The notes beneath the pieces are model-generated. The model ran no database searches. It saw nothing but the letters and a program-made list of their open reading frames with translations, and had not been told where the DNA came from. This document shows positions 31,862 through 58,629 of a DNA stretch of 64,000 nucleotides, piece by piece. Numbering within the stretch: the first letter of the stretch is position 1; each line of letters opens with the position of its first letter. Origin of the DNA: Tubulanus polymorphus (Eukaryota > Nemertea > Palaeonemertea > Tubulaniformes > Tubulanidae). The translations under genes and the position numbers were made by a program. The stretch spans positions 1,662,485 to 1,726,484 of the forward strand of contig NC_134027.1 in the NCBI RefSeq assembly GCF_964204645.1, written 5' to 3'.

Positions 31862-32623
31862 GTGAGTGTAGAGTAGCTTCATTAGTCTTTGCTGATGATA
31901 TGAAATTAAGTTAACACAAATCTGACAGTTGAAACAAAATTGTGGTCACTTCTTTCAGTTTATTGGCCGTAATTGAAACCGTTTGAATCGAATAATTTTT
32001 TAATCAAATCGAAAATTTTGTCAAATATAAATACACATTAACATATATATAAATTCGTGTTTTCAAAAGTCTGATCAAACAAATATACATCAGTATTGAT
32101 ATGGGACAAATATATATATATGTTATTGGCATTCGTGTGCTGGTATTTGTAAATATTTAATATCCAATTCTAAAAGGTAGATATCCAATATATTCCCTCT
32201 TGTACATGTGCTACGTACCATTTCACTTGCGTCACGACTAGCAATTAGGGATATATAACATTTGATTATCTTAGAATTAATAACCTGTATATATATCAAG
32301 TTAGAAAAATTGCCATGGGATTCTTCGTAGTCCCCTATAGTACCGTGTGTACAAACCTTCATCGATAATATTTTGAATTAATCAAATCCACGAACTGTGT
32401 CTGAATATCGCGTGGGAATGAATTTAATTTGCTTTCAAGAACAATTTACGTCAATCCCTGCTGAGAATAAAACTATGAATGAAGAAATGATTTATATTCA
32501 TTATCGTTAACGCGAGGAATTTTCTTGTTTTTTTTTCCAGCGTTTGCGAATGCGTAGCCGATTCATTGCGTCAGTGTTATGGTAACATATTTGGATAGAG
32601 CGTTGCGATATTCACCGGTTACA

Positions 32624-33715
32624 ATGGGTTACGACCAGGAAAGATTCGTTGAGAAAGTCAACGATGGATTATTGTGTTGTATTTGTCGAGATGTTCTTGA
32701 GGACCCGCTACAGGGACCGTGCGAACACGCTTTTTGCGCCGGTTGTATTCACGGTTGGTTGGTCCATGAGAATATCTGTCCAGAGGACAGACGACCGCTG
32801 TGGATCACTGAACTGAGACCACTTTTTCGATATATGAAAAACGATTTGGATAAATTACAAATCCGTTGCCGCAATTTTCGCGCCGGTTGCGAAATCGTAT
32901 GCAATTTAGAATATGTCGAAGCCCATGAACGAGATTGCGGTTTCGTGACAATTCAATGTCCAAGTATTGGATGCACGGTGTCTCTTGAACGACGGGCACT
33001 AGATGAACATCTGACAAACTGTGAATTCCGCACGAAAGAATGTCCAAACGGATGCGGGATGCCGATATTGAGTACGGAAGATCGCGAACACAATTGTATC
33101 GCAGAATTGAAAATGGGAATCGAAGTTTTGCGGTCGGAAATAATCTGTAAATCCGAGGACCAGAAACGAGAAATAGACGTTCGTCTTGACGCGCAGAGGC
33201 GGCATATGGTACAGAGGGAGAGTGGTATACACGCCCATATAGACGAACTGCGCGCCCAAATCGCCCTCCAAAAACAAGAACTTTCCCAACTTCATCAAAC
33301 GCGTCAGTTTAATGACGAAGAGTTGGTTACAATGCGACAAACTTGTCAACACCACGACGATTTAAAAGTGCTGAAATTCATCGTCAAAGATCTGGAGGAC
33401 ATGAAACAAGAATTGACATTTCTGAGAGCTCAAACCAGAGAACAACAAGGCGAGATACAACGACAGCAGCAGGAGATGAGGGAATACAGAGAGCATCGGG
33501 ATGCCGTGGAAACTGAGATACAAATACAGAAATCAAGGATCAACAAACAAGAACAACAGATTACTGAACAAAACAGTAAAATTCACGAACTTGAAACCGA
33601 AAATTGTGAAATTAGCGGTTCATTGAAAAAGGTATTATCGGAACAGCAAACAGCGCCGCAAACTCAGAAAAAATCCGGAATACCAGTTCGTACTGTGAAA
33701 ATAACTGCTTTATAA
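32624..33715 (+). CDS. NRDP1/RNF41-like RING finger protein with long coiled coil, 363 aa, one coding exon
   Basis: The start MGYDQERF at 32624 matches the NRDP1 N-terminus (MGYD..RF); an in-frame ATG at 32579 would add 15 residues. The RING (about residues 18-55) reads C-x2-C...CEHAFCAGC...CPEDR. Like NRDP1, it has Asp in place of the last zinc-binding Cys. Two TRAF-type zinc-finger units follow (about 80-165; ending CPNGCGMPI...HNC). The remainder (about 165-345) is a Gln/Glu/Arg-rich heptad coiled coil. It is much longer than the C-terminal part of vertebrate NRDP1 (about 317 aa in total) and I see no USP8-binding domain or MATH domain. It is probably a ubiquitin E3 ligase; the substrate is unknown. 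The uninterrupted coding exon hints at retrocopy origin, but a 5' UTR intron seems present. Confidence 0.9.
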   Translation: MGYDQERFVEKVNDGLLCCICRDVLEDPLQGPCEHAFCAGCIHGWLVHENICPEDRRPLWITELRPLFRYMKNDLDKLQIRCRNFRAGCEIVCNLEYVEAHERDCGFVTIQCPSIGCTVSLERRALDEHLTNCEFRTKECPNGCGMPILSTEDREHNCIAELKMGIEVLRSEIICKSEDQKREIDVRLDAQRRHMVQRESGIHAHIDELRAQIALQKQELSQLHQTRQFNDEELVTMRQTCQHHDDLKVLKFIVKDLEDMKQELTFLRAQTREQQGEIQRQQQEMREYREHRDAVETEIQIQKSRINKQEQQITEQNSKIHELETENCEISGSLKKVLSEQQTAPQTQKKSGIPVRTVKITAL

Positions 33716-35039: not shown

Positions 35040-38000
35040 TTATTTAGTGTATGATCGCATATGTCGACCCCCTCGCATTTCATCCCTCCTTCCTCCGCGG
35101 AAACTACCACCAGGGGGCAGTGGATGAGCGAATCTAAAATACATAAATAATCATTTCCTGTCGAGTCATTCGTTCGAAAAGAAGCAAAATAACGAACATT
35201 GAATCGGAATATTACCTCGAATCGGATTCCTTTCTAGGACTGCCCCATTGACCTCGTCCCCTGCCTCCGTTTCCACCTCCTCCACCACGACCGAATCGAG
35301 GATTGTCTCTAACACCGCGTCGATCGCCGGAACCCATTCTATCGCCGTCGCGTCCTCGACCGCCGTTAAATCCACGCGGTGATAACTGTTTCGAACGTCC
35401 GCCCCACTGTCCGGCTCCCGGTGAACCACGCGATCCATTAGCTCCTCCACCGCGAGTCTGACCTCCTCCTCGACCAGGACCTCGATCGGAACCACCTCGA
35501 CCGTTCCTCGACGCTACAAAATATTAACATCATTATATCATATAATCGTAGATTCATCCAGTTCAGTTCTTTTTGCTTTCTTGATCTGATACATGAAAAA
35601 TAGACAGAAACTGATTTTACACGTGATCTGGCAATCTCAACAACTTTTCCCGACTATTTGCAGATTTTTTTAGATAAAAGAAAATTCCACGACTTTTCCC
35701 TGATTTCCAGGTTAAGTGGCGCCACCTGTATAATAGAATGGATCGAATGTATAAAATACAAACCTGTATCTCTACGACCGTAAACGCCGGGTGGTGAGAA
35801 AAACCGGCCTCGTCCACCACCTCCGCCGCCACCACGGACTCGGTCGAAATTCCTACCACGACCTCCGCCTCCTCGTCCACCAGAAAACTCCTACATTATA
35901 GAAAACAAAAAATACTCTTTACAACATGTTTACAAGATGAATTCATATTTCAAAATTTTCTCAAATGGAAATAAACATTATACCATCACACTACAGGGAC
36001 TTCTACTTTCTTTTTTCATTTGGGCAATAATTGACATCCCAGAACTATGCTACATGAAGCTTACAAGTTATTTCCTAAATATTTCCCGAATTGTAGGAAA
36101 ATGTAACAAATTCTTAAATATTTCCAAACCCAGAAATATAATTTTGAAATTCCACAAGTTTTTCCGGATTTTCTCGGCACAATACAAATTGCGTTCGTTG
36201 ATTACCTTTCCTCCAGATCCTCCTCCAGCTCCTCCACCATTATTACCATTACCTCCATTACCCTCGAACTTCACAAAGTCATCGACATGCATCGAAGGCG
36301 GTCGACTAGTGTTCGGTGGTCGCGATCTAAACGGGTCGTTCGGACGAGACGACTGCGACCCGCGACCAAATCCACGACCTCGCATCGGCGCAACTAGAAA
36401 TATAACATAACAATCGTAAGGCTAAACAAAAATGATACCTTGTTTCTCCGCAGCGGCCGGGTCATTTTTGTAAAATATGATAAAATTTATAAACAGTTCA
36501 TTCCTATAGCGGCCGGGTCTGTTATGGTAAAATTGATCACGATTTTAAAAAAAAGTAATGTATAGGGTAGATAGGCGGCCGGCCGGGTCAACATTTAAGC
36601 TCAGCAGAGCGGAGAAACAAGGTATCAATTGTTTTTAGCCTAATCAACAAGTATTACATGTATTTAATACTGAGCAGAGGTAATACTGGATATTGGTATT
36701 ACGAAATACTTACTAAAAGCTTGTCTTCTTCCTCGACCGCGAGTACTACTTGTATTTATAGTATCTCTATGACGAGCATTTCTGAAATATCAGTTTTGAG
36801 GTCATTCAAAAATTTCCCTCTTCGACCAATACGCAGACCTGACTACCATACAGACCCACCACAATTTGACATCGAAATTAGTAGTTCGATTAAAAAAGAA
36901 TTAGAAATCATTCTGATTTTGTTAGTAAGTAAGTACTGGTAGTCAGGTGTGCATAAATGAAATTATTTTCCCAACATAATCATAAATACTTTTACGTATC
37001 ACAAATGTAAAACCTTGCAAAAGGACCCTTTATGAATTATGGCATGTATCGTTTTCTTACCGTTGTTTTTTCTTCGGTTTATGAGCATCCGATGACAAGG
37101 AACCTTTCAACAGTTCAGCTTTCAGATCGAAGTCCGGATAGAATTTGTGACACATGTCTTCGAAATCGCAACGAATCTGTTAAAAACAGAAACGAATACA
37201 AATGATCTTTATTTAATTAAGTAACAGTTTGTAATGTATACGTGTATATATTTGAAGGGAAAGAAAAACTTACAAGTTCCGTTTCAGAATCGGAATCATC
37301 GACCGGATAATTCAACCAATAATTGAAATTCAGACGATCGTCTTCGTTATCGGTGATTGTATAAATAGGTCTCATAGTGAACTGTATAGAGACTGGTATG
37401 GGATCCGGTAATACAGGTATCTCTGCATTCTCTTCATCATCATCTACAAATACAACATCATTATACTCTACATAATAACTACGTTCATCAGGCTCCAGTT
37501 CCACAGTTCTGAGTTAAAATTTGACCCCGACTTAACTCATTGAAAATGAACTAATTTTAACTCAGAATTAACTCTAACTCACAACTGTGGAACTGAGTCC
37601 AGGGTTCTTACAGATCAGTGAATCAGAAATTCCCGAATATTTCCCTGACCCTTGACCAAAAATCCCATCCTCAGTCGGAGACTGATTCTTCTCAAGACAC
37701 TCGTCACCAGCAAGAACAATAAGACCTCAAACATTCAAATAATTCCCTGATATTTCAATGATTATCGAGAAACGAGTCATAAATCGTTGATTTTTCTTGA
37801 TCTGTAAGAACTGTGAATTCATTCAAACAGTTGTAAATATCTCACCTTTCTTCTCAGTAGAATCCTCTGTTCTAACGATCTGTAGTAATGTTTGAGTTCC
37901 CTCTAATAAACTTTCTAACATCTCTTCATCTTTGTTCTCATCTTCTTTAACACAGTCCTGAATCAAACAGTATCAGGGGTCAGATTATTGATAAAATCTG

Positions 38001-41000
38001 CAATTTTCGCATATTTTAAAACCTTATAATTGGTTTTTTTCACTTCTTTTCGCAACAAAATACCAGGATAAGTCACAATTAGTCACAATTTTCTTTCACA
38101 TCAAAATACAATAACATAAGCAGTGACTGATCACAATCTGGACTTATTGTAATAGAATATCAATCTAACTTTTCAATTTGTGTGTAAATTGTGAAACTGT
38201 GATATACTTACCACTAATAATCTCTCTAAATCTGTTAATGGATGTTCGTATGCATTTTCCGGAGTCCATGAGATGATATTCTGTATTTCCGGAACGGTCA
38301 TCGTTTTGGTGCGAATTAAAGTCTGTTCTTCGTCGTTGTCAATCGTAACGAGCAGACGTAGAAATTCTGTCGCTGTTGACAACGTCGATAAACAATCGCT
38401 ACTGTCTTTACTGAACGTATTGTTAATACGCATGAATAGATTGAAGAATATTCCTGGCATCAGTCCAAGACATCTGAAAATACAATCAATTAGGTAGAAT
38501 TTCGCAATAAAGTAAAACCTCCCTTAGTGAACACCCGCCTTGATAACCATCATTTGTCCAGTCCCAAAATCTGTATCTATCATCAGTGCCTCCCTATAGT
38601 GAACTTTTTTTTGCTCAGTCACTTCACTACAGGGAGTTTTTACTGTACATATCAGAAAATTGAACTGGAGAAACATTTTGTTTGATAACTTACTGTTTTA
38701 AGAGCGTAAATCCGTAATCATGTTCGAGCAACATAACTAACGTTCTCAATGCTAGTAGAATAGATGCATAATTATGATCGATATGACCCGTATGAATCAG
38801 TAATCCATTACATATTTCATTCAATAACTCCCGACACGGAATAGAACTCGATAGCTGAAATAAACAATACCCGTAACCTCATTATCGTGTTCCATGATGC
38901 CTTACGATCTAATGCGATAACGACTAAACTTACCAGCAATTCTGGTTCTTGAACGCTTTCAGGAGGCAAGATGGAAATTTCTGGATCGCAAATTGATTGA
39001 AGGATCGACTGTTGAAATAAAGAAATTCTTTACATCTAAACGCACTGAGCACAACTTGGGGTATTATTGCTTTTATGGATTTTCGTAAATCTGAACTCTC
39101 TTGACCTATTTCGGACTAAAGTAAAACTGTTGCATTTGAATATCATTTGGAAAATGTATCTATACTCACAACAATACATTCTTGTGCTTGTAAATGCGAT
39201 GGTCTGTCAAATGGTATATTCATCGTAACGAGTAACTTGGTTAGAACGGTAGCACACCACGGTTCACTGTGAATCCTGAATCAAAAACAACACACAAATC
39301 ATCGCACACATTACAGTTGAATCTATGGAATTCAGTCCGGTCGGACGGTGGTTTATTGCACACATACCCCGGTGTTATCATATCAATGACAGTCATTTTA
39401 ATTGATGGATGAGCAACGAGATGAGCTAAACACGTGAACAGCTGAGCTGTATCCGAGGAAGCTGGTTTTATCATCAGAGGTTCGGCTGGCTCTGTTTCTT
39501 TAGTCGCATCTTTGGGAACCTCGGCCGGAGTCGGACCCCAACTTTCAACTAAACATTCCAACAGCGACCTAGAAATACAAATCAACATCGTTTAAACATC
39601 GAACAAATATCTTTAATTTTTTATCCAGTTCAACAGTTCAGTCCATATTTCATAGCAAAAACAGACTGATAGTAGCTGATTTCAACCGAGTCTACGTTTG
39701 ATTCTTACTTAGCTATAACTTGGGCTGACGGGGCTGACATGTCCGCTATCTGCCAACAAACCCTTCTCAATACATTCTGCAGAGGTACACAACTAGAAGC
39801 TGTCAAATAGAAAACACAAATGATATATACCGGGTACTCAACAATTCAAATTCATACGCACGATGTGACTGGTTGGTACTGGTCAGTACTGGTCGGTACT
39901 GGTCAATACTGGTTGGTACTCACTGGCTAGAGATTTAATGATTTCATGAATCTTCGTTTTACAACACAGAATATGCGCGCTCCATAATTTACGAGTATTC
40001 GTCGCTATAGCGACTTCTTCATCGGTCAAACCCTGCAAAAATCGTAATTCAATTCTGTTTAAAACTATCCTCGAGTATTAAATAATCTCTGAATGCAGGA
40101 TTGAGACGTAGGTTACCTCTTTAGTTTGTAAAGGTAGTGGTAATGGTAGTAACTCTGACAGCATTATTAACCCACTCACAGCTGTATACGGAGATGTCAA
40201 TGTATATTTCAGCAACTCGTCCAACATTTTCTTCCATAAACTTTCGCTCAAAGCTTTAAAAACAATCAAAATGTAAGAAATCGAAAGATAACCGATGAAT
40301 CAATTCAATCTGTAGTTATCATCTGGTAGGGTTCTTACAGATCAGGGAATCCTAATTCTCTAATATTTTCTTGACCATTTACCAAAACGTCCCCCTTTAA
40401 ATTATAACATCCTCAGCGGGTGCGGTTTCTTTTGAAGAGGTTCTTTGTACCACAAGACACCTGTCATTAAAATTCCCAGACTTTCCCTTTTTTTCAAGAA
40501 AAGAGTCAGAATTCCGTGATTTTCTATGATTTGTAAGAACCCTGGAATAACTACAATTTACGATTACTATCAACATCAATACCATTCTCAGATTGCTCCA
40601 GCGCTGGTTGAGTATAGGCCAATAGCGTTTCCAATATGTTCTTTTGTACCACCTGCATTTGTTCAGCTAGTTGACCAGTAGGGGGCGCTGAACACATGAC
40701 GGTATGCACCTCAAACAGAACGGCTAAATGTGACACATCCTTGCACTGTAAGCGAAATATTAGATGTAGTTTTCGACAAAAATGAGAGAAATTTGACATC
40801 AGACGTAGTATCGGTACCGGGTAGTTTCATTGAAATTGAAATCATTATGATTTTGAAAGTATCACGATATTTTCGGAAGATGGAATCTCGAAATGAATAG
40901 AAACTACTCTGAAATAGAAGTCGCAGTCAGGTCAAAGACCCTGCCCTTTTATTACAACATGAATATCACCATGGACGTATAGACTAGACCTTAACACTAG

Positions 41001-44000
41001 TCTATGCGCCCATGATGACACTTCTATATAACAGTACCCTTGTATTCTTTTATATAATTTTGTATGTATAATCGTGTTGTAATTCGAGGGAAAATAAAAA
41101 GTTATTCAAGTTATTAAAGGTCTGCATTATCCGATAACTTCTCGGGATCAGTTTCGGTTACCTCAGCACCGCGTGAATGTATGAAACTGCACTGCATCGC
41201 TTTCATCAGAGCTATCGTTGGTTTAATCATCGCCGTCGCGCGAAGTCCTTTCCCGATACTCAGATAACTTCCTTGTTGCCACGGACGACGAATCAGATCG
41301 GTGATTTTCTACGATAGATAATAGTAATAGGAACTATTAGCACAGAGAAAATTTCCAGAAGAATTTGTGCCAAAAAGTTGGATTTCCTACCTGTAATATG
41401 TTTGTGAAGATCTGCATACATTCAGCACTGAATAATTCAGCAATAACAATCTTATATTTCAACTCTTGTCGACCTGTAAACATAAAACTGTTTATCAATA
41501 CTCAACCTCAATTAATAATAAAACCGTTTTAAGAATTTCATGCCTCAAACCCCCCTGACATTACCGGTATCAGCAGATTCCAAGATTCATCTCCCTACAA
41601 TCTCCACTAAGGTTGACTGAGGGCATTATTAGCACGTTCCTGATTAAGGGGGAGTAGCCAGAAAAGGATCTTTGTCCGAGAAACTTTCACCGCCAGAATT
41701 CGAACCCATAACCCTTGGATGGATGAGAGGTTTGTATATAAACGTACCGCATGTTTTCTGTTTGCTCGGTGCTATTGCCCAGTGTTGTAATATTTTAAGA
41801 GTTGTAATCAATCCTCGCGGTAATTCAGTGATTTCATCGTTGTATTGTTTTAAAGATGTAAGAACGACTGGTAAACTTTCATACGTGTAATCGCACATTC
41901 TTCGAGTTGGAGCCAACCATTCCTGTAACTCATTCAATTTACTGTTCAAATCTGGAAAATGAAATCAACCCGATTAAAGAGGCGGCTTTTTACATTTGAT
42001 AAATTCCATTTGTTGATAATTTGAGAGATGATTTTTCTTACCGACGTCGCTGAGTTTAAGGAGCGTCGCCGCGTATTTCTCGAGCAGGTTCATGTTCACC
42101 GTTTCCCTGACGACGATCACGAGCAGATGAGAAACGTACATCGCGTTTACTGATTTTTTCAAACGATAAATCATCGCTTCACTGTCCTCTTCTGAAAATA
42201 ATAGAGAACAACTTCATCAAATTCAAGCTCATTAAGTTTCAATAACCGATCTAACTATCTAAGGCCAGTTCAATAACAAGCTAAGACCACTCTGAGCTCA
42301 TTTGGTTCTATTCTCGTACAAATCTCACAACTTGAAGACTGAAAACCATGGACTTATGACTGTGTAACTGGGCGCTAGATCTTTACTCATGTATAACTCA
42401 CCGGGAATTTCGACTAATGGAATTAGAACGTCTAAATTATTAGCCTGACTCAGAACGTGCACGACGCATTCGCGACCTTGAGCAGAAAACGTCATCATGA
42501 ATAATGTGTGAAGCATCGACAATATTTCAGGGTCATCGATTAACTTTTCCGCAACATCTACAAATAAATCAATATCGTGTAGAAGTACGAATAAAATAGA
42601 ATGCATCAGGAATCACACCCTAGCTCTTTATCGGATTCAAATCCTGTGAACTTAAAAGAAAAAGACTTTACCCTTTTGGTGAAATTCTGTGAGTCGATCT
42701 AAAGCTTGTAAGACTTGCATACTGTATATGAGTTGCAATCCGAGTAGATTAGCCGGAGTTTCCTCAGGCGGTTCATCAGAACTCTCCTTTAAAAATCACA
42801 TAGTTGAAGATACAGCATCTTATCATTTTAAACATTAAGATTGGATTCATCATCACTGATATTCACAAACCTGGGCTTGAGTAAGATTGCGTATGATTCC
42901 GTTTGTAAGCTCCGTTCTTGTTGCTAGGTAACGTAATCCTTCCATCGTCGACATTAATTGTTGTAAGATGTCTTTGACGATGGTGAATATACCGCTGTGA
43001 TTGAATGTAGAGGGCGCAGTGATCAACATGAATACGCTTTCTAATAGATGTCTAAAAACAACAGAAAATAATTGGATGAGAAATATAACAGTAATCTGTG
43101 TGAGGGAACTGTGGAAATTTGTGATGAATTTGCGTCAAAAATATAGACTTGAGTTTCCTCCAATGAGTACAGCAAGATTTCAAACATTCCTTGAAAATAG
43201 TTTTTTAGATCCAAACCAAAAATACAGAGTTTTTCTTAAGCTATTAGTTTTTCATTGTGGGTGGGATGCTCCAGTGGAAAAACCTACTCACCCAGACTCA
43301 AACATTTCATACAGGTTTGGATATGGATCGTAAGATTCTTTGCTGACGGCTACTTGAACTTTAGCGACTAGGGTCCTTCTAGGCTGAGCCTGACATAAAA
43401 AATAAAGAACTAATTCAATAACTTAGCAAGGCTTAGATTCTTGTCAAGTTGTAGGTGCTCTACAAATTGAGCACCTGGGCCCAGTTCCACAGTTCAGAGT
43501 TAAGATATAACTCTGATTTAACTCATTGAAAATGAACTAACTTTAACTCAGAGTTAACTCTTAACTCGGAACTGTGGAACTGGGTCTTGGATTTTGTTAG
43601 GTGCTTGATTAACAGTGCCTCAGAATCTAAGCCTTGAGGAGCAGTTAAGAGGTTGTTACTATTATAACTTACGATGGTATATTTAGCGTTAGCGTGTATA
43701 CCGATGATCTCATCCAACGTATTTACAATAGGTTCAGCTTCGGCATCAGAAACAGTCTGAGTAATTCCATCCAAGTCTTCCTCACCTCCCTCCGGTGCCG
43801 CTGCTGTCTTCTCGCTTTCGACATCCGCGCTTTCAATAAGCCTGAGATCAAAAACGAAAGAGTTCACGGAAATTTCATCCCAGATTTTAACAACAGTCGA
43901 TCATCGATTATTACGATTTGAAAACTTACTTTTCGGTGAGAAACTGGAATTTACCGATCAGTTCAAACACGTGCATTTTACGAATAAGTGGAGAAATAGA

Positions 44001-47000
44001 AACCATCGCACGCACCAGCTAGAAATACATAGAAAACAATTCAGTTTCTTGAAGTAAAGTACGGTAAATGAAATGAAAGCCTGTTCATTGCAATGATATG
44101 GGTTCATTCGCTGTAATTGCTTTTGAGGTAAAGAATGAAGAAATAGTTACCCGTTTTGAGAGCATGATTTTAATTGATTTTGATGTAAAGAATGAAGAAA
44201 TCATTACCTGTTTTGAGAGCATGATTTTAACGAGTTTTTGATACGCGGATTCAGTTTGTTTATACTGAACGTCCGTCTGTTGTAGAGGGTGCAATCCGAG
44301 AAACCATTGGATACCCAACTGAAACCGTGTCGTTAAATCCAACGCTCGAAGAATCTGAATCTTTAACGAGATCGACATATTCTCCGACAAATACAAATCT
44401 AATAATTTGTGTTGGGTTTCTCTTTTCTGTAAAGAGATAAAAACGGCATGACTATAGTTATGAGATTTACCGGTACTAAAATGTGGCATTTGCAAACATC
44501 ATGGAAAACAGCAGAGTTTACTGAATTGCTCATCAACGTTGTAAGAATTGTTAGTTCAAGTTCATAATAGGTACGTGGTAAACCTGGCTCAACCCTCATA
44601 CCAAGTTTCAAGAAAGACAATTCTGGACTGAAACTTGCTAACAAGAAATTCAAGTTGGCCAATAAACCTCTATTCTCAATAGGGTTGGACATCTCGCTTG
44701 CCCCAATCCTCACAATAAGTTTAAGGGAAATCTATGAAGGATTATAGGCAGTATTCTGTTAACAAGAAATTCAAGATGGCCGTCATATTTGACGGCTGGT
44801 GACATCTCACCTGCCCAAACCTTCGCACTAAGTTTTCATGAAAATCTATCTAGAATTGCAGGCTCACATCGCACTTATAAGGTCTCAAATTCTCACACTG
44901 ATTATAGAACAAGGTCTCCTCACAAACTGAAGTGTATTTCCAGTAAACTTACCATCATTTTAGCAGTGATACTATAATCACAAGCGCTGAACACGCCGGC
45001 TAGTTTGATTCCCATTTTCAAATGGCGTAGAATGTATTTACGGTCCGGTTGTAGCATAGCTTTCTCAATATCTAACCCTTCTATAATCCAATCGACCAGT
45101 AGATCCACGACATCTAAACAAAACAATATATAATAAATAAAACAATCGATCGATTGATCTTTTAAGGTTCAGAAACTGATAATGAACTGATAACTACTTA
45201 CCTTCTCTTTTCTCTTTCAACAGAAGATAAGACAAACCAACGGATAATAACTGAGGCAACAATTCCATCGCTTCGATCCAACTAAAAATAAAAAAGTTAT
45301 TGTCACAGTTAAATCGAAAAGAAGCTGAATCTATTGAAACAGGTGGGTAATGAGAGAATTAAATACTTACGCTGCATGATGCGGTTCAGTTTTATAAAGA
45401 TTAATTATCTCTAGTATTTGAGTAGCTTCTGTCGGTACATCAGGTGTGCAACCTTTCTGAGTCCAAGCTATTATCTCAACTTGGTAACTAGTCAACTCGG
45501 GACTGACTAAACTCTATATACAATTACACAAACAGTCAACAATTTCAATATTGCATGAAACAAAGGTTATAAAAGACGTCTTGAAGATTGAAAGCCGTAC
45601 CGTCAACGGGTTTAACTCAAACTGATAAGGATTATACGTATAATTCCACATCAGATCATCAGGGATTTCGATATCCATATCCTGCATTCTCTGCAATTCA
45701 TTTTCATCCACGTCTGACATGATGTCTTCGTCCGAAAGAATTTCTTCGTAGCCTCCGCCTTCCATTTCCTATCATTGAATACGAAATAAAATATCAGACT
45801 GGGTACCCATTTACTCCTGGGTGGAGAGAGGCAATGAGGATAAGTGTTTTGCCCGGGGACACTACGGCAATGTACGGGGTTCGAACCCACAACCGCTAGC
45901 CCTAAAGATATACGCACATATCCATACGTAAAACAGGGAGAACATTCTGCAGAAAAGCATGTCAAAATTTTCAGCAAAGATTATTTTTGAAAACTTTTTC
46001 ATTATTTTTCAAAGAAATTACTTTAACCCTTTCAGTGCGGTGTATAAATCGGTATACAAATTTTCAAATTATCTCCAGCACTATAGGGTATTAACTAGTC
46101 AGCACTGAGAGGGTTATGAATTTTTTTAAACACTTTTCACAGTAACGTCATCGATCCATGTGAGAGTATTCTAATCAATAATGATAACATACCGGTAATT
46201 CCCCTTCTGAAACATCGATACCTTCCTCATCAGCGGAGAGAGCGTCGAACTGATTGATGCCATGTTGAGCTGGTGTAGGTTGAATGATAGGTATCTCCTG
46301 TATAACTGGTGGCATTGATAGATGTGTGGGAGCCTGCTGTCCGTCACCTACTGTTTGTATCGCTATAAACATATCAAAAGCGTACAGAAATGAATTTCTA
46401 GAGATGGACAAAGATTCGGGATTAATTCTAAGGGAGCGTTTAACAGGACAAACCCCAGAATCTCCTGCCTTTCTGACCCCCTCCCTCCTGTATATACTAA
46501 ACTTCCTTTCACACTTGAATGAAATATTAAGTCGTTCAATGAAATAGTGCCAGGTTTTTAAACACTTACGTTGATGTTCTGGAGGTACAATGTATGGATC
46601 ATATGGATGTCTATAATCATACGGAGCATTTACATCCATTTGTATTTGTTGCTGCTGCTGCTGCGGTGGTGGTGGCACACGCATCATACGAGGGAATGGT
46701 GGACCGGGGGAACGCGAGCGACCCGGCGACGGCTGACTCCGTATAGCTGGTATCGGCCACTGTGTAGGAGATATAGGACGACCGGAGGGGCTCATTGGAG
46801 GCTGTTGAGGCCACCCTAATCCTACTGGACTCCTCGGTCGACTTCCATGGCCTCTACTGCCAGGGCTGCGCATTCGACCACCGGGACTCCTAGGTCGACC
46901 ACCCGGACTTCGAGGTCGACCACCGGGACTTCTTGGTCGACCACCAGGACTCCTGGGTCGACCGCCGGGACTCCTAGGTCGACCACTTGGACTACGTGAA

Positions 47001-50000
47001 AGTGGACTACACATTCGACCACTTGGACTACGGGATCCGCGACGAGGACTACGACCTCTCGGACTTCTCGACCTGTGACCACCGGGACTAAATGAACGTC
47101 TTCCCGGACTCCTCGGTCTTCCTGAACTCCATCCTCTATAACCCGGACTCCAAGGTCTGGAGTCAGGACTATGAACTCTACTTCCAGCTCGTCCGGAGGG
47201 ACTTCTGGAGCGTCGTCTTGGACTGCGAGGTCGACTGCCGGGACTACGAGGTCGACTGCCGGGACTCCGAGGTCGGCCCACTGATCTTGATCTTGATCTC
47301 CTACGACGACTGTATCTTCCACCTGGACTTCTTGATCGCCTGTTTGGACTCCTAAGTCGACTCCCCGGACTACGAGATCTTTGTCGTGGACTGCGACTCC
47401 TACTTATAGCACTACCCGGACTGCGTGAACGTCTACCCGGACTGCGGTTTCTAGTATCAGGGCTTCGTCCACGTTTACTGCCCGGACTTCGAGACCATCG
47501 TCCTGGACTATTTCTACTGCGAACAGCAGGACTTCGACCGGGACTACGAGGTCTACTGCTTCCTGGACTCCACGCACGACTTCCACCGGGACTCCGAGTC
47601 CTACTGCTTCCAGGACTACGAGGACGACCACCGCTAGGACTCCACGCTCGGCGTTCACCGGGACTGCGAGGTCTATTACCTCCAGGACTCCACGGTCTAT
47701 TCATTCCGGGACTTCTCAGTCTACCGGTCGGACTCCAACTCCTTCTACCGGGACTACGGATTCTTGCACCTCCCGGACTGTGAGTTCGACTACTGCCAGG
47801 ACTCTGAGCGCGACTACCTCCTGGGCTACGAGGGCGGCGTCCTATTGGACTGCGTCTTTTTCCAGCACGCCGGTCACTCGGACTACGAGGTTTCACAGAA
47901 CCACCCGGGCTCATACCTCGGTTACTGCCGGGACTACGAGCCCTATTACTGCTCGGACTACGAGCCCTATTACTGCCCGGACTACGAGCCCTATTACTAC
48001 CCGGACTACGAGCCCTATTACTGCCCGGACTACGAGCCCTGTTACTGCCCGGACTACGAGCTCTATTACTGCCCGGACTACGAGCTCTGTTACTGCCTGG
48101 ACTACGAGCTCTGTTACTGCCCGGACTACGAGCCCTGTTACTGCCCGGACTACGAGCCCTGTTACTGCCCGGACTACGAGCCCTGTTACTGATCCCTATT
48201 GGACTTTGTCCTCTTTCGCTATCTCTGCCCGGACTACGGATTCTTTGAGCAGCATCTTTTCCAGGACTGCGTGATTGCGGGTCTCTGCGGGGACTCCTTG
48301 GTTTGTTACAATCAGGACTCCAACCGCGATTACTGTCTTTTTCTGGACTTTTACCTCTGAATCTTTCAGGACTTCTCGTTCGAATTTCTCTGCCCGGACT
48401 TTTAATACGACTGGAGTCTTTGCCAGGAGACCGCAAAATATTTTGGTCGGGACTTCTAATCCTTCCATCCCGCGCGCTAGCATCCGGACTTCTTCCAGGA
48501 CTCCACCCTTTTTTGTCACCTCTCCCGGGACTCCTTCGTCTGTTGCTATCTCTAGCAGGGCTCCTACCTCGTACACCGTCCGGGCTTTGCGTTCTATCGC
48601 TGTCCCTTCCTGGACTATGACCTCTATTTCCATCCTTACCGGGACTTCTAGTCTTACTGCTCTCTCTCGGTGGAGTTCTAGCACGTTTACTATCAGGACT
48701 CCGCGCTCGTCCGGGACTCCGCGCTCTCTCAGCAGCTGGACTTACTGTTCTATTACTAGCTAAACCAGGACTCTGATCTCGATTACTGTCTCTACCCGGA
48801 CTTCTATTCGCCGATTTCGAACGTCGTTTATGCGGGGGCGGTGAGTGAGACCGACTGCGCGACCCACCGCGTCTCCGCGGAGACCGAGACCACGAACGTC
48901 TCGGCGACCGAGAATACGAGCGTTGCCGTGGCGATAATGAACGCGACGACCCCGATCTCGATCGTCTCGGAGATCGTCGCGGTGACCGCGGTGATTTCGG
49001 TCGCGTCGCTGATCGATTGTGATAGCGTTCCCAGTCTTTCTCCCACTCTCTCTCGTGACTTCCCTGACGTCTATGACTGCGCTCGGATTCTGCGCTGTAG
49101 TCACCTGCGGCAGCTGCTTTCACCGATTCCTGTTGTTGATAATGTGAAGTATCCGATTGAGCTGGTACCGTATAATGAGATGTATCTGATTGAGCTGGTA
49201 CCGAATACGATGCATCCACCTGTTGTTCGTGTATGGCATGTGGCTGACTAATTTCTGCGTAATTCGGTTCTTTAGCAGTAGCAGTTTTCGGGTCGTGAGA
49301 TATCTACAAATATATTTAGACAAATTTTTACATTTTCAATTGATAGACAATTATTTTTCAGGCTAAAATAAGATATTAATAGTTAATGTATTTCTTTTAC
49401 CTCAATTTGTTCTAAATGATAAACAGGCTCATGGGTTTTACTTTGTTTTTCGACGGGTTCAGACACTTTTTGCTGTCTTTCCGCGGAACCTGAAATTAAT
49501 AAACAAAAGTTTTATCTGAATTATGGTTTATATGGTTTCACACAGACTTCATTCAGATGAATCCATTTTTATTTTACCAGTTCTTTGCGGAGGTGGAGGA
49601 GGAGGTGGAGAATTGCGGTCCTTCGCGACGTGAGTCACTGAACCAAAAACCGCTACAGTCAGCATTGAATACCAGCCCTTCAATATCAAACCATCAGTAG
49701 CTACTCGCTGTAAAATAGAAATACTCTCAGTTTATGGAAAATAAAGAATTTCAGTCTTGCTTTTTTTAATTCGAATTTGAAAAACGCTTAAATACCGACC
49801 TGAGTATCAAACTGCATGTAACTGTCTCTATCTCCCTGATAATCCAAACTAGAAAGATAAATTACTACTGGTAACAATCCCACAATCGTAAAATCGTCAG
49901 TCACTGGACATATTCAGGTAAAAGGGATCAAAGTATCGACGCATTTTACAAATAGGTTTATCGTAATAAACTCATTTCTAAATACAGTAAAAACTTGCAT

Positions 50001-51243
50001 AATTCTGTAGATTATAGATTTTAAGTGATTTATCAGAATACATCAGTATTTGTACTTACACGCCAAGCTTTTCAAATGTAGCCGCATTCGGTTTCATAAG
50101 ATTGTTCACATACATTTCCAGTTTGAAGCTGGAGGGGTTTGTAGCCCTGAGAAAATAAAAACAAAGTAAAAAACTTAATTTCTACGATAGATAAGATGAC
50201 ATTCCGGATGAAGGGTATGACTTAAAACAACTCTCGAAATATTATCGACTTGACAATTTCTGTGGACGATGTTCGTGTAGCATGTCATAAAACTCTTTTT
50301 TTGTCCTAAAATTTGGCGAGTTATTTCACCTTCCTACGAACTGACCCTGATAACTTGAAACTATTATTTTGGGATGGCGTTATTGATTGTACTGACCCGA
50401 GTCTAGCAGCTCCAGGAACATCAGCGACAACTTTCACACCAAGTGGAATTATGCGAACGTCATGTATCAACACAGGATGTTGAAACTGGACGAGATCGAG
50501 ATTTATGTCCTGAAAAATTATCATTTTAAATCTATTAGATAGAAATATTGTGAAGTATCTAGTATTAACGCTTCTCACCAATACATCCCCTAAACATTAA
50601 TATTGATAACTAATTCAGGTAAGATAGATTAAGGGTACAAATAAGATTCAGGGTTAGATTTAAGTGTTACATGAGGGTTTAGGGTTGAGGGCTATAAGGA
50701 CATAATAAACATGTAACTTGCTTGTCCAGGGCCTACTGGTGGGTGGTAGAATGCTGAACCGTACAGCTAGCTCCAGTTAGAGATGTGGAGCTCAGAATGA
50801 CTCAATGAGCCTACGACCTTTATGGTAAAATGGGGTTTAAAAATAGAGCCATATTGCCGAGTTTTGGTAAAATATCTATTTTCTGTCCAGGCAATTTATT
50901 TAAAATTCACTGCTTCTATCTTGTCAGTCTCCTCCACTTCTCCAGCAGCACAGAGTTAGAGAGGTCAACCGAGCAACAGCAGCAGCCAGCAAGGATGCAG
51001 AAGAGAAGAGCCGAGGAGCGAGGAGGGGAGGACGACTAGCCTATAAAACAAAACGCTTTCTCCTCAAATACAATGCTATCTTACTGATGATTGTGACTGT
51101 TACATAGAGATAAACACTGATATTGTATAACACGTCTATGAGTACCCTATACTCGTACTCACATCGTTATTTTCGTGCTGAAATGTATCAAAAAATAATA
51201 ATTCAACTTGGCCGGTGTCCGCCATCATGAATTTGGACGCCAT
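35040..51243 (-). CDS. VIRMA: Virilizer/VIRMA, m6A writer-complex scaffold, 40 exons, 2704 aa
   Basis: The chain of 40 GT-AG exons totals 8115 nt and closes in frame. The N-terminus (VELLFFDTFQHEN, DVRIIPLGVKV, LILKGWYSMLTVAVFGSV, then a PPPPPPP run) matches VIRMA in order. The body is a helical repeat scaffold with clear landmarks: YEEILSDEDIMSD, YKIVIAELFSAECMQIF, LIMLSELLPLPLPLQT and LVMLLEHDYGFTLLKQ. The C-terminus is RGG-rich, with NTSRPPSMHVDDFVKFEGNG and the ending RGGRHMRSYTK, nearly as in vertebrates. VIRMA bridges METTL3/14-WTAP to other m6A writer subunits and, in flies, acts in Sxl splicing and sex determination. The vertebrate protein is about 1812 aa. The excess of about 890 residues is one SR-rich exon (46570-49303). 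Start: MASKF at 51243, or the nested ATGs at 51228/51225. Exon coordinates are given in the block entries that follow. Confidence 0.97.
36420..36640 (+). mobile_element. PIF/Harbinger-like MITE, copy 3 (VIRMA intron 36)
   Basis: The same 221-bp element as the two in PIP4P, near-identical to 13675-13895. TAA lies on both sides as a target duplication. The high identity between copies in two genes suggests fairly recent amplification. Confidence 0.8.
37491..37610. repeat. TIR MITE (CCAGTTCCACAGTT family), copy 1
   Basis: The ends CTCCAGTTCCACAGTTCTGAGTT and, inverted, CTCAGTTCCACAGTTGTGAGTT enclose ACTCATTGAAAATGAACTAA. The same structure is at 43478-43592. It lies in VIRMA intron 33. Confidence 0.75.
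37611..37815. repeat. TIR MITE (GTTCTTACAGATCAG family), copy 2
   Basis: The ends GGGTTCTTACAGATCAGTGAATC and, inverted, AGTTCTTACAGATCAAGAAAAA are complementary. It directly abuts the preceding MITE in VIRMA intron 33. Its interior is related to 40328-40546. Confidence 0.7.
38513..38647. mobile_element. Small Tc1/mariner-type MITE in VIRMA intron 31
   Basis: About 135 bp with inverted ends TAAAACCTCCCTTAGTGAA and TTCACTACAGGGAGTTTTTA, with TA at the boundaries. No ORF is present. Confidence 0.65.
40328..40546. repeat. TIR MITE (GTTCTTACAGATCAG family), copy 3
   Basis: The ends AGGGTTCTTACAGATCAGGGAAT and, inverted, AGGGTTCTTACAAATCATAGAAA pair well. The internal AAAGAGTCAGAATTCC is shared with the fragment at the left window edge. 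It lies in VIRMA intron 24 and ends about 16 bp from the exon 24 donor. Confidence 0.75.
43478..43592. repeat. TIR MITE (CCAGTTCCACAGTT family), copy 2
   Basis: The inverted ends GGGCCCAGTTCCACAGTTCAGAG and AAGACCCAGTTCCACAGTTCCGAG enclose the same core as copy 1. It lies in VIRMA intron 15. Confidence 0.75.
44115..44228 (-). repeat. 57-bp tandem duplication spanning the VIRMA exon 13 donor
   Basis: Units 44172-44228 and 44115-44171 are aligned copies. Each holds about 20 nt of exon end (AAAATCATGCTCTCAAAAC) and about 37 nt of intron. The first donor reads CAG|GTAATG (exon end 44208). The copy reads CGG|GTAACT (exon end 44151). Because 57 is divisible by 3 and the frame stays open, use of the second donor would insert 19 residues. 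Confidence 0.85.
45790..45905 (-). repeat. SINE-like element with tRNA-type B box
   Basis: CCCATTTACTCCTGGGTGGAGAG, AAGTGTTTTGCCCGGGGACAC and a terminal GGGGTTCGAACCCACAACC resemble a dispersed motif common in marine invertebrate genomes. It lies in VIRMA intron 8. A similar GAATTCGAACCCATAACC end is at about 41690 in intron 21. Confidence 0.5.
46870..46990 (-). repeat. VIRMA: 21-bp coding repeat in VIRMA exon 7
   Basis: Five to six tandem copies of a 7-residue unit, RPRSPGG, with synonymous differences between copies. Confidence 0.8.
47928..48192 (-). repeat. VIRMA: 24-bp coding minisatellite in VIRMA exon 7
   Basis: About eleven tandem copies of an 8-residue unit, SNRARSPG. Copies differ at few positions, mostly synonymous, with one S-for-G change (SPSSN). 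The near-identity indicates recent unequal exchange, and the copy number is likely to be polymorphic. Confidence 0.9.
49401..51243 (-). other. VIRMA: VIRMA exons 1-6 (conserved N-terminal domain)
   Basis: Exons: 51243-51163, 50509-50397, 50146-50060, 49848-49800, 49707-49578 and 49489-49401 (183 codons in total). They encode the conserved N-terminal domain up to SPPPPPPPQRTG and a charged linker. The exon 2 donor is GTCAGT and weaker than the others. The start region has ATGATGGCGGAC, with three in-frame ATGs within 21 bp. Confidence 0.92.
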
Positions 51244-57041: not shown

Positions 57042-57304
57042 ACTGTTTCTGTCTGATTGATTGATAACATTGAGATGTTACATTCTGCTCTATTGTCACT
57101 GATTTATTTTTATTTTTCTTTTCAGAATGAAATAAATGCAATAGAATTTACTATTAAAACAGACTCATTTAAAAGTGGTAATTAATTTCTCTAGAGAATT
57201 CTTCTCAGTCTCTGTTGATGTTTTGAATTACCTTTGAACTTAAAGCTTAAGTTTTACTCCCATTTACAGGATGAGACACACACAGCAGCTGCAGCTACTT
57301 AGCT

Positions 57305-57396
<92 letters not shown>

Positions 57397-57421
57397 CCAC
57401 AGCAGCAGCAGCAGCAACACC

Positions 57422-57460
<39 letters not shown>

Positions 57461-57540
57461 CCAGCACCACCACCAGCAGCAGCAGCAGCAACAGCACCAG
57501 CACCACCACCAGCAGCACCGGGAACAATTGCGGCAGCGAT
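57305..57540 (+). repeat. CAG trinucleotide array, about 28 pure units then interrupted
   Basis: Uninterrupted CAG runs from about 57308 to 57392. CAACACCACAGCAGCAGC-type interrupted repeats continue to about 57540. The array sits between a TTACAG acceptor-like site (57270) and a CAG|GTAAAA donor-like site (about 57545). In the glutamine frame a TGA lies just after the acceptor. The open frame reads polyalanine, then Gln, then Ser. I therefore do not call a protein. Confidence 0.95.
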
Positions 57541-58629
57541 AGCAGGTAAAACCTGGAAATTCATCATTGTTAGAGAACTGTTCTATATAAATTTTTCTAT
57601 CTGTTTTGTTTCCACCAATCAATCACTCAAAGATCACTGCTTAGTTTGAAGTGAGTTTTCAACTGTTAAAATGTATTTATTTCCTGATCAAAGTTGGAAT
57701 TATCAAGATCTTTATGTTTTCCATACATATTTTCAGTGAACAGATCTATGGAAGTTTTGGCGCCCAACAGTCAACCTCAAATACCGCTGGCTTAAAAACA
57801 TTGATGAATGGTGAGTTTTTGATTTCGTTGCTCTTATTTCATAACAACTTAACTGACAATTTCTAACACTAATACATTTGTTTTTAAGAGCTGAAATAAG
57901 TGAAACCCGTGAAAGAATCTGTGAACAGTAAACATTGGAATTCACTTCACATTAGTTAAAGATGGACATCGCTTTAGATCCTCAAAACAAAACAAGTACC
58001 GGTAAATATCTCGACAGATTCCAGTCTCTATAAAACTGTACATTTATAAACCTAGAAGCTACATTAATCAGTGAAGGTGAATTTCCAATCACTTCTATTC
58101 TGGTCAAAGTTCAAATTATCAAAATTATACAACTTTTGTATTCTAGGGCCTGAAATGAAGCTGAACTTGCAGTAAACATTGCGCTCTACAAACACAAGTC
58201 AGAAGTGGTGAGTTTCATATCGATTTATTGCTGTAATTTGTGGTGCTTTATCGGTTATAAACTATATTGTCTTATTTCAGGAGATATATCTTCAAATCAA
58301 GTCCGGAAAATGATGTGTTTTTAATCGGTCAGTGTTGGCAGGTATCAACGCTTTACTAGAGGATACAGTCTAAAGCTACCATCAAACACCTGAGAAATCT
58401 GCATACACTCAACACATTGTGGTAAACTACTCAAAAATCGGGTGGGTTTTCAGTCTGTTGAACCCAAACAAGCCACAGTTTCTATTTATTTCATTAATCA
58501 TTTTCAGGCTTAATTTTCTCTTTCCAGAATGTGATGCACCAAACACTAATTGGAGCTGGAGAAACTAAAAATATTCACCTTCAAATAGTGAAGAAACTTA
58601 TGTTGTTGCTGAAGCTGCTGTTATTTCTT

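Follow-up and report, generated by a model that had tools for sequence, protein, structure and literature searches.

An SR-related repeat block within the Virilizer/VIRMA scaffold gene of the nemertean Tubulanus polymorphus

The gene for Virilizer (VIRMA), the scaffold of the N6-methyladenosine (m6A) writer, poses an unusual question in the palaeonemertean Tubulanus polymorphus: is a single giant exon, rich in arginine, serine, proline and glycine, a selected part of the protein, and what might it do there? This exon, exon 7 of our draft model, lies on the minus strand at positions 46570..49303 of a 64,000-nt stretch of contig NC_134027.1 (assembly GCF_964204645.1, positions 1,662,485 to 1,726,484), which is referred to below as the window. 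Our reading, to which we assign a probability of about 0.5, is that exon 7 belongs to the coding sequence of VIRMA and that a linker within it may have become a selected RxRSPG array acting as a phosphorylation-tunable tether.

The gene that carries exon 7 is a genuine Virilizer. VIR_N has three matches in the 268-Mb genome (77 contigs), all of them from one VIRMA gene (exons 2, 3 and 5), and the first 183 residues of its model match VIR_N (PF15912) with an E-value of 1.5e-61 and 208.5 bits, the cut-off being 27.7. The gene spans approximately 35040..51243 on the minus strand, where the draft model has 42 exons with a median length of 130 nt and encodes 2760 aa; it was built from generic splice matrices and codon odds, with a bonus favouring exon 7 and four Gly-rich 3' exons, the small exons 25, 35 and 38 being uncertain. 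With exon 7 taken out, exons 1-28 match human VIRMA (7vf2 chain A) at an E-value of 2.7e-155, and exons 34-42 do so at 1.9e-16 with the common SRPPSMHVDDFV stretch (the comparison covered these two blocks, on either side of exons 29-33). The initial annotation had proposed that taking the repeat block away leaves a protein of the usual VIRMA length, and this holds, with 1849 aa after removal of exon 7 compared with 1812 aa in human. Sequences of two other writer families, WTAP and MT-A70, were also found in the genome, and therefore an m6A writer probably exists in T. polymorphus.

Exon 7 comprises 2734 nt, that is, 911 codons and one further nucleotide, and is delimited by an AG acceptor (TTTGTAG/ATATCT, the slash marking the boundary) and a GTAAGT donor (AAC/GTAAGT, after 46570), the latter better than most (29th from the weakest of 41). 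It follows exons 1-6 (49401..51243), which encode the VIR_N domain and a poly-Pro stretch, and its reading frame is continuous with both exon 6 (49489-49401), which ends in phase 0, and exon 8 (46193..46362), which starts in phase 1 after the 207-nt intron 7; exon 9 (45601..45768), aligned to human VIRMA, encodes the acidic GGGYEEILSDED region. Thus, the existence of a 2734-nt VIRMA exon and its position between the N-terminal domain and the acidic SDED region, both noted in the initial annotation, stand. The claim that both neighbours are in phase with it holds too, but the exon is asymmetric, entering in phase 0 and leaving in phase 1, and its skipping breaks the frame: when exon 6 is joined to exon 8, a stop follows after 4 codons. 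Full-length VIRMA therefore needs exon 7 or an in-frame part of it. The same phases bear on the origin of the block. A cassette arriving within an intron could not have been frame-neutral without a compensating splice-site shift, and insertion as a cassette exon is ruled out by the early stop. Growth within an older exon is a simpler history, and exon 7 most likely grew inside an already existing exon through repeat duplication, rather than being built in as a single added exon as first suggested. Intron 7 itself (46363-46569) is a multiple of three in length and has no in-frame stop, so its retention would preserve the reading frame.

An external source of the block was sought in the genome. 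With the exon 7 DNA as query, the genome matched only the exon itself, simple repeats being skipped by this search; with the protein, no second copy was seen among the 50 scored of 462 candidates, where at least 47 low-complexity matches lie elsewhere (best E-value 3.2e-10). A copy of another gene's serine/arginine (SR) region was rejected on these grounds. Frames were read at four loci (L005, L006, L016 and L017), with L007-L015 and matches lacking a locus left unread, and all four turned out to be minisatellites (unit length 21 or 24 nt) with at least two open frames and unrelated peptides; a further locus, L018, was used for the tandem-repeat scan and as an array control. An SRRM2-type source was also discarded, as the cwf21-domain exon of this genome differs, being of SRSRSPKK and RSRSESP style and not made of RSPG octads. 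Comparisons of exons 9 and 7 with viral contigs, and of exons 26-27 with genome contigs, sets that hold no animal comparators, yielded no relative.

The frames of exon 7 speak for its coding status. There is no stop in the 911 codons of its reading frame, whereas the other five frames contain 15, 109, 22, 19 and 28, and the longest open frame in 900 sequences resampled from the exon by Markov models of orders 1, 2 and 3 (300 sequences each) is 290 codons, which rules out a chance open frame inside a repeat. Long open frames in the repeats of this genome nevertheless call for a coding test, given that one 24-nt minisatellite with 57 copies (L017:805-2175) is open in five of six frames over 460-504 codons. 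In one such test, every AGTCC outside the two tandem arrays of the exon served as an anchor, with no frame assumed. All 55 anchors share one frame. Behind them comes a base with counts of 14/13/14/14, followed by two positions that carry G in 41 and 39 of the 55, respectively. That a third base is so evenly distributed while its neighbours are conserved carries more weight than the shared frame. The two arrays were tested separately. The first, at 47927..48190, is young and consists of eleven 24-nt SNRARSPG units (one reading SNRARSPS); 11 of its 12 changes from the consensus and five of its six distinct variants are synonymous, with a neutral expectation of 0.24 (P 0.0035 on distinct variants). 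The second, at 46874..46993, consists of 21-nt GRPRSPG units, and in a register of seven of them 12 of 21 distinct variants are synonymous, compared with 0.30 expected (P 0.009). These signs support purifying selection on the repeat peptide of exon 7 rather than free drift.

The peptide itself has a regular grammar. That it is made 'almost only' of Arg, Ser, Pro and Gly proved overstated: these residues account for 69% of the whole exon and for 75% of a repetitive core of 797 residues (46691..49081), outside which lie the first 74 residues (49082..49303) and the last 40. The repeat unit of the core is R-x-R-S-P-G, and the core holds all 90 Ser-Pro (SP) sites of the exon, whereas the remaining 1849 residues of the model have 9. 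Successive SP sites (n = 89 spacings) are 7 residues apart in 22 cases and 8 in 31, and 77 of the spacings fall outside the SNRARSPG array, with a diverged SP motif spanning the entire core. Arg occupies position -3 at 70 of the 90 SP sites and position -1 at 63, and Gly is found at +2 at 52; there are 18 RPxSP motifs and one RSRSRS. The core also contains 87 RS and 35 SR dipeptides and nearly 200 Arg residues. A strict SR protein has one or two RNA-recognition motifs (RRMs) and an RS domain of at least 50 residues with more than 40% RS content. In exon 7, the density of RS/SR dipeptides reaches this level in 3 of 19 overlapping segments (43%, 47% and 50%; 18 segments of sixty residues and one of 11) and is lower in the other 16; a stretch near the core start (exon residues 101-160, 48824..49003) has 43% of its residues in such dipeptides. 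By the looser measure of long R/S-rich repeats, as in SRRM2 and SON, the entire 797-residue core qualifies. The SR-type label of the initial annotation is thus loose, while the SR-related character it pointed to is retained. The sole Pfam match of exon 7, Cornifin, is below the cut-off.

These features led us to widen the earlier idea of control by SR kinases. Since Arg is present at -3 at 70 of the 90 SP sites, proline-directed kinases of the CLK/DYRK type, with their preference for Pro at +1 and Arg at -3, would suit exon 7 at least as well as SRPKs. In the literature, DYRK1A is described as requiring Pro at +1 together with Arg at -3, CLK1 as phosphorylating SP dipeptides of the SRSF1 RS domain, leading to speckle exit, and DYRK3 as implicated in speckle dissolution (PMC10952393), with SRPKs targeting RS/SR dipeptides (PMC9202992). 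SRSF1 resides in speckles if partly phosphorylated and exits if hyperphosphorylated, and speckles are scaffolded by RS repeats; truncation of the SRRM2 RS repeats disrupts them (PMC10023157). In mammals, auxiliary writer subunits, WTAP and ZC3H13 among them, reside in structures resembling speckles; methylation within speckles, and what holds the m6A writer there, are called unclear in a 2025 review (PMC12453181).

A mechanism may be proposed from this grammar. The linker in exon 7 would have expanded into quasi-periodic R-x-R-S-P-G units with SP sites mostly 7-8 residues apart, partly via duplication of 24-nt and 21-nt units, with selection retaining the repeated peptide. The resulting array would most likely serve as an SR-related, phosphorylation-tunable multivalent tether. 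At low or partial phosphorylation, its Arg residues would retain the m6A writer on RNA and in condensates of nuclear speckles or splicing factors; extensive SP phosphorylation by CLK/DYRK-type kinases would neutralise the charge, and the writer would be released. From the sequence we infer that exon 7 is expressed and encodes a disordered segment, that kinases use it, and that it influences localisation and methylation.

A number of observations weigh against this reading. By score, only four of the 41 acceptors are weaker than that of exon 7, and the codon model without the bonus never took the exon whole: one run ended in an extended exon 6, and the other broke the exon up into seven fragments, of which five were in a different frame. 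There was no SR sequence among the training codons of that model. The 55 AGTCC anchors are copies of related units and not independent; duplication by multiples of three preserves the frame, and the shared frame by itself could stem from it. The array tests draw on few variants, and the non-VIRMA array at L017 is also phase-skewed (29/0/14, from four distinct variants), so that phase skew alone is not decisive. The minisatellite phase controls are otherwise mostly uninformative, L005 having no in-register units and L006 no variants, with two distinct variants at L016, the four at L017 and eight at L018. As for the kinases, the 87 RS dipeptides of the core leave SRPKs possible, and DYRK and HIPK kinases are described as not mainly active within repetitive RS domains (PMC10952393).

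Linkers of the exon 7 kind often differ in length, and it is conceivable, albeit unlikely in our judgement, that the expansion is mostly neutral: a minisatellite-prone linker would have been lengthened by slippage and tolerated, with only the frame and a general hydrophilicity kept. In favour of this are the 24-nt and 21-nt tandem arrays inside exon 7 and the four loci at which frames were read, minisatellites with the same unit lengths and two or more open frames. The codon-phase evidence, however, speaks for retention of the RSP peptide itself, and the spread of diverged SP motifs over the whole core, mostly outside the SNRARSPG array, is likewise at odds with a purely neutral history. A rather less probable proposal, which we regard as very improbable, is that exitron splicing removes the block from the mature mRNA or that the block stays untranslated; a donor at 49219 joined to an acceptor near 46760, for example, would leave a normal-sized VIRMA. 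Three positive-scoring in-frame donor/acceptor pairs within the first and last 400 nt, removing 2460, 2559 or 2526 nt, and the weakness of the exon's own acceptor lend themselves to this proposal. However, an equally good best pair arose in 10.8% of 1000 resamplings, in which the mean number of pairs was 4.25 compared with the 3 observed, and the candidate splice pairs are thus not above chance; moreover, 911 stop-free codons and a synonymous excess are unexpected in an untranslated stretch.

It is also doubtful, more so than neutral expansion, that invertebrate Virilizers commonly have an RS-rich segment here, which would make exon 7 a long example and not a new fusion. Fly Vir has an Arg-rich charged stretch after VIR_N. 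In the nemertean gene, addition of the first 95 residues of exon 7 lifts the VIR_N score from 208.5 to 220.6 bits, with the alignment covering profile positions 3-256 of 258, whereas six shuffles of the extension gave 210.5-216.7 bits; the RS stretch appended alone gave 207.2 bits, and exon 8 joined instead gave 208.5 bits. Because the gain lies above all six shuffles, it hints that exon 7 begins with an ancestral VIR_N tail, and the first 74 residues are a possible continuation of the profile. Yet the gain is small and in part an effect of composition, one shuffle having reached profile 3-257; the first 175 residues of exon 7 alone match no family; and the human linker at the same place is poly-Pro and acidic. 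Furthermore, no RS-type domain in VIRMA or virilizer is named in the titles or abstract openings among the matches listed, which is weak evidence, and the Flacc/Zc3h13 paper (PMC5900714) does not contain the terms 'RS domain', 'serine' or 'arginine'.

The nemertean protein shares with human VIRMA the VIR_N domain, the poly-Pro stretch after it, the acidic SDED region, the long middle part and a Gly/Arg-rich C-terminus with SRPPSMHVDDFV. In contrast to the poly-Pro and acidic linker in human, the corresponding gap in the nemertean is filled by 911 residues with 90 SP sites. The speckle scaffolds SRRM2 and SON likewise have very long low-complexity repeats, and the RS-repeat regions of SRRM2 are needed for speckles (PMC10023157, PMC9470157). 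Unlike these, VIRMA is a methyltransferase scaffold, and the cwf21-domain exon of this genome lacks RSPG octads. Classical SR proteins, SRSF1 and its kin, also combine RS and SP sites, the SP sites being of the kind phosphorylated by CLK1 in SRSF1 (PMC10952393). They differ in that Pfam finds no RRM in the scanned exons 1-22 and 34-42 of this VIRMA, the RS-dipeptide density of exon 7 is mostly below 40%, and its SP spacing is regular. ZC3H13/Flacc is comparable as a large writer subunit without rigid structure, and its C-terminal region wraps VIRMA (PMC12453181); it is a separate protein, however.

Several other features of the window were recorded. A 57-bp tandem duplication at 44114-44230 includes the donor of VIRMA exon 13 together with the last part of that exon. 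It creates an additional donor, in frame and 57 nt farther downstream (the two score 4.1 and 3.2), and possibly an alternative extension of 19 residues. An imperfect palindrome seen by eye at 43475-43595, around CCCAGTTCCACAGTT ... AACTGTGGAACTGGG, lies inside a VIRMA intron and may represent a short transposable element of the inverted-repeat type. Past the 3' end of VIRMA, at a distance of about 1.3 kb, the plus strand carries an open frame of 385 aa (32558-33715) with a RING-like Cys/His pattern and the look of a coiled coil, labels given by eye. At 57275-57649, a CAG-triplet run about 70 units long (57308-57517, 91% matches) lies in one open plus-strand frame that reads poly-Gln and then becomes Ala/Pro-rich. 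Rfam scans at gathering thresholds and tRNA scans of the 64-kb window gave no matches. The genome as a whole yielded no match to COX1, nor any to the mollusc haemocyanin beta-sandwich, the latter negative carrying no weight because no control responded to that search.

Taken as a whole, exon 7 is real and appears to be a new form of SR-related repeat domain on a known scaffold, with a function that we infer. A bolder and distinctly tentative extension, which we think unlikely to hold, is that the writer scaffold of this lineage bears an array resembling a C-terminal domain (CTD), with about 90 regular R-x-R-S-P sites, through which the SP-directed kinases that control splicing condensates would have direct command of the place and timing of mRNA methylation; in other animals, such control would run via separate subunits, if at all. 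If exon 7 is what we propose, T. polymorphus, with an SP-dense SR-related domain inside its scaffold, would offer a natural experiment on whether speckle tethering controls m6A, and an essential scaffold would have been lengthened by about half through repeat expansion with the repeat peptide preserved.

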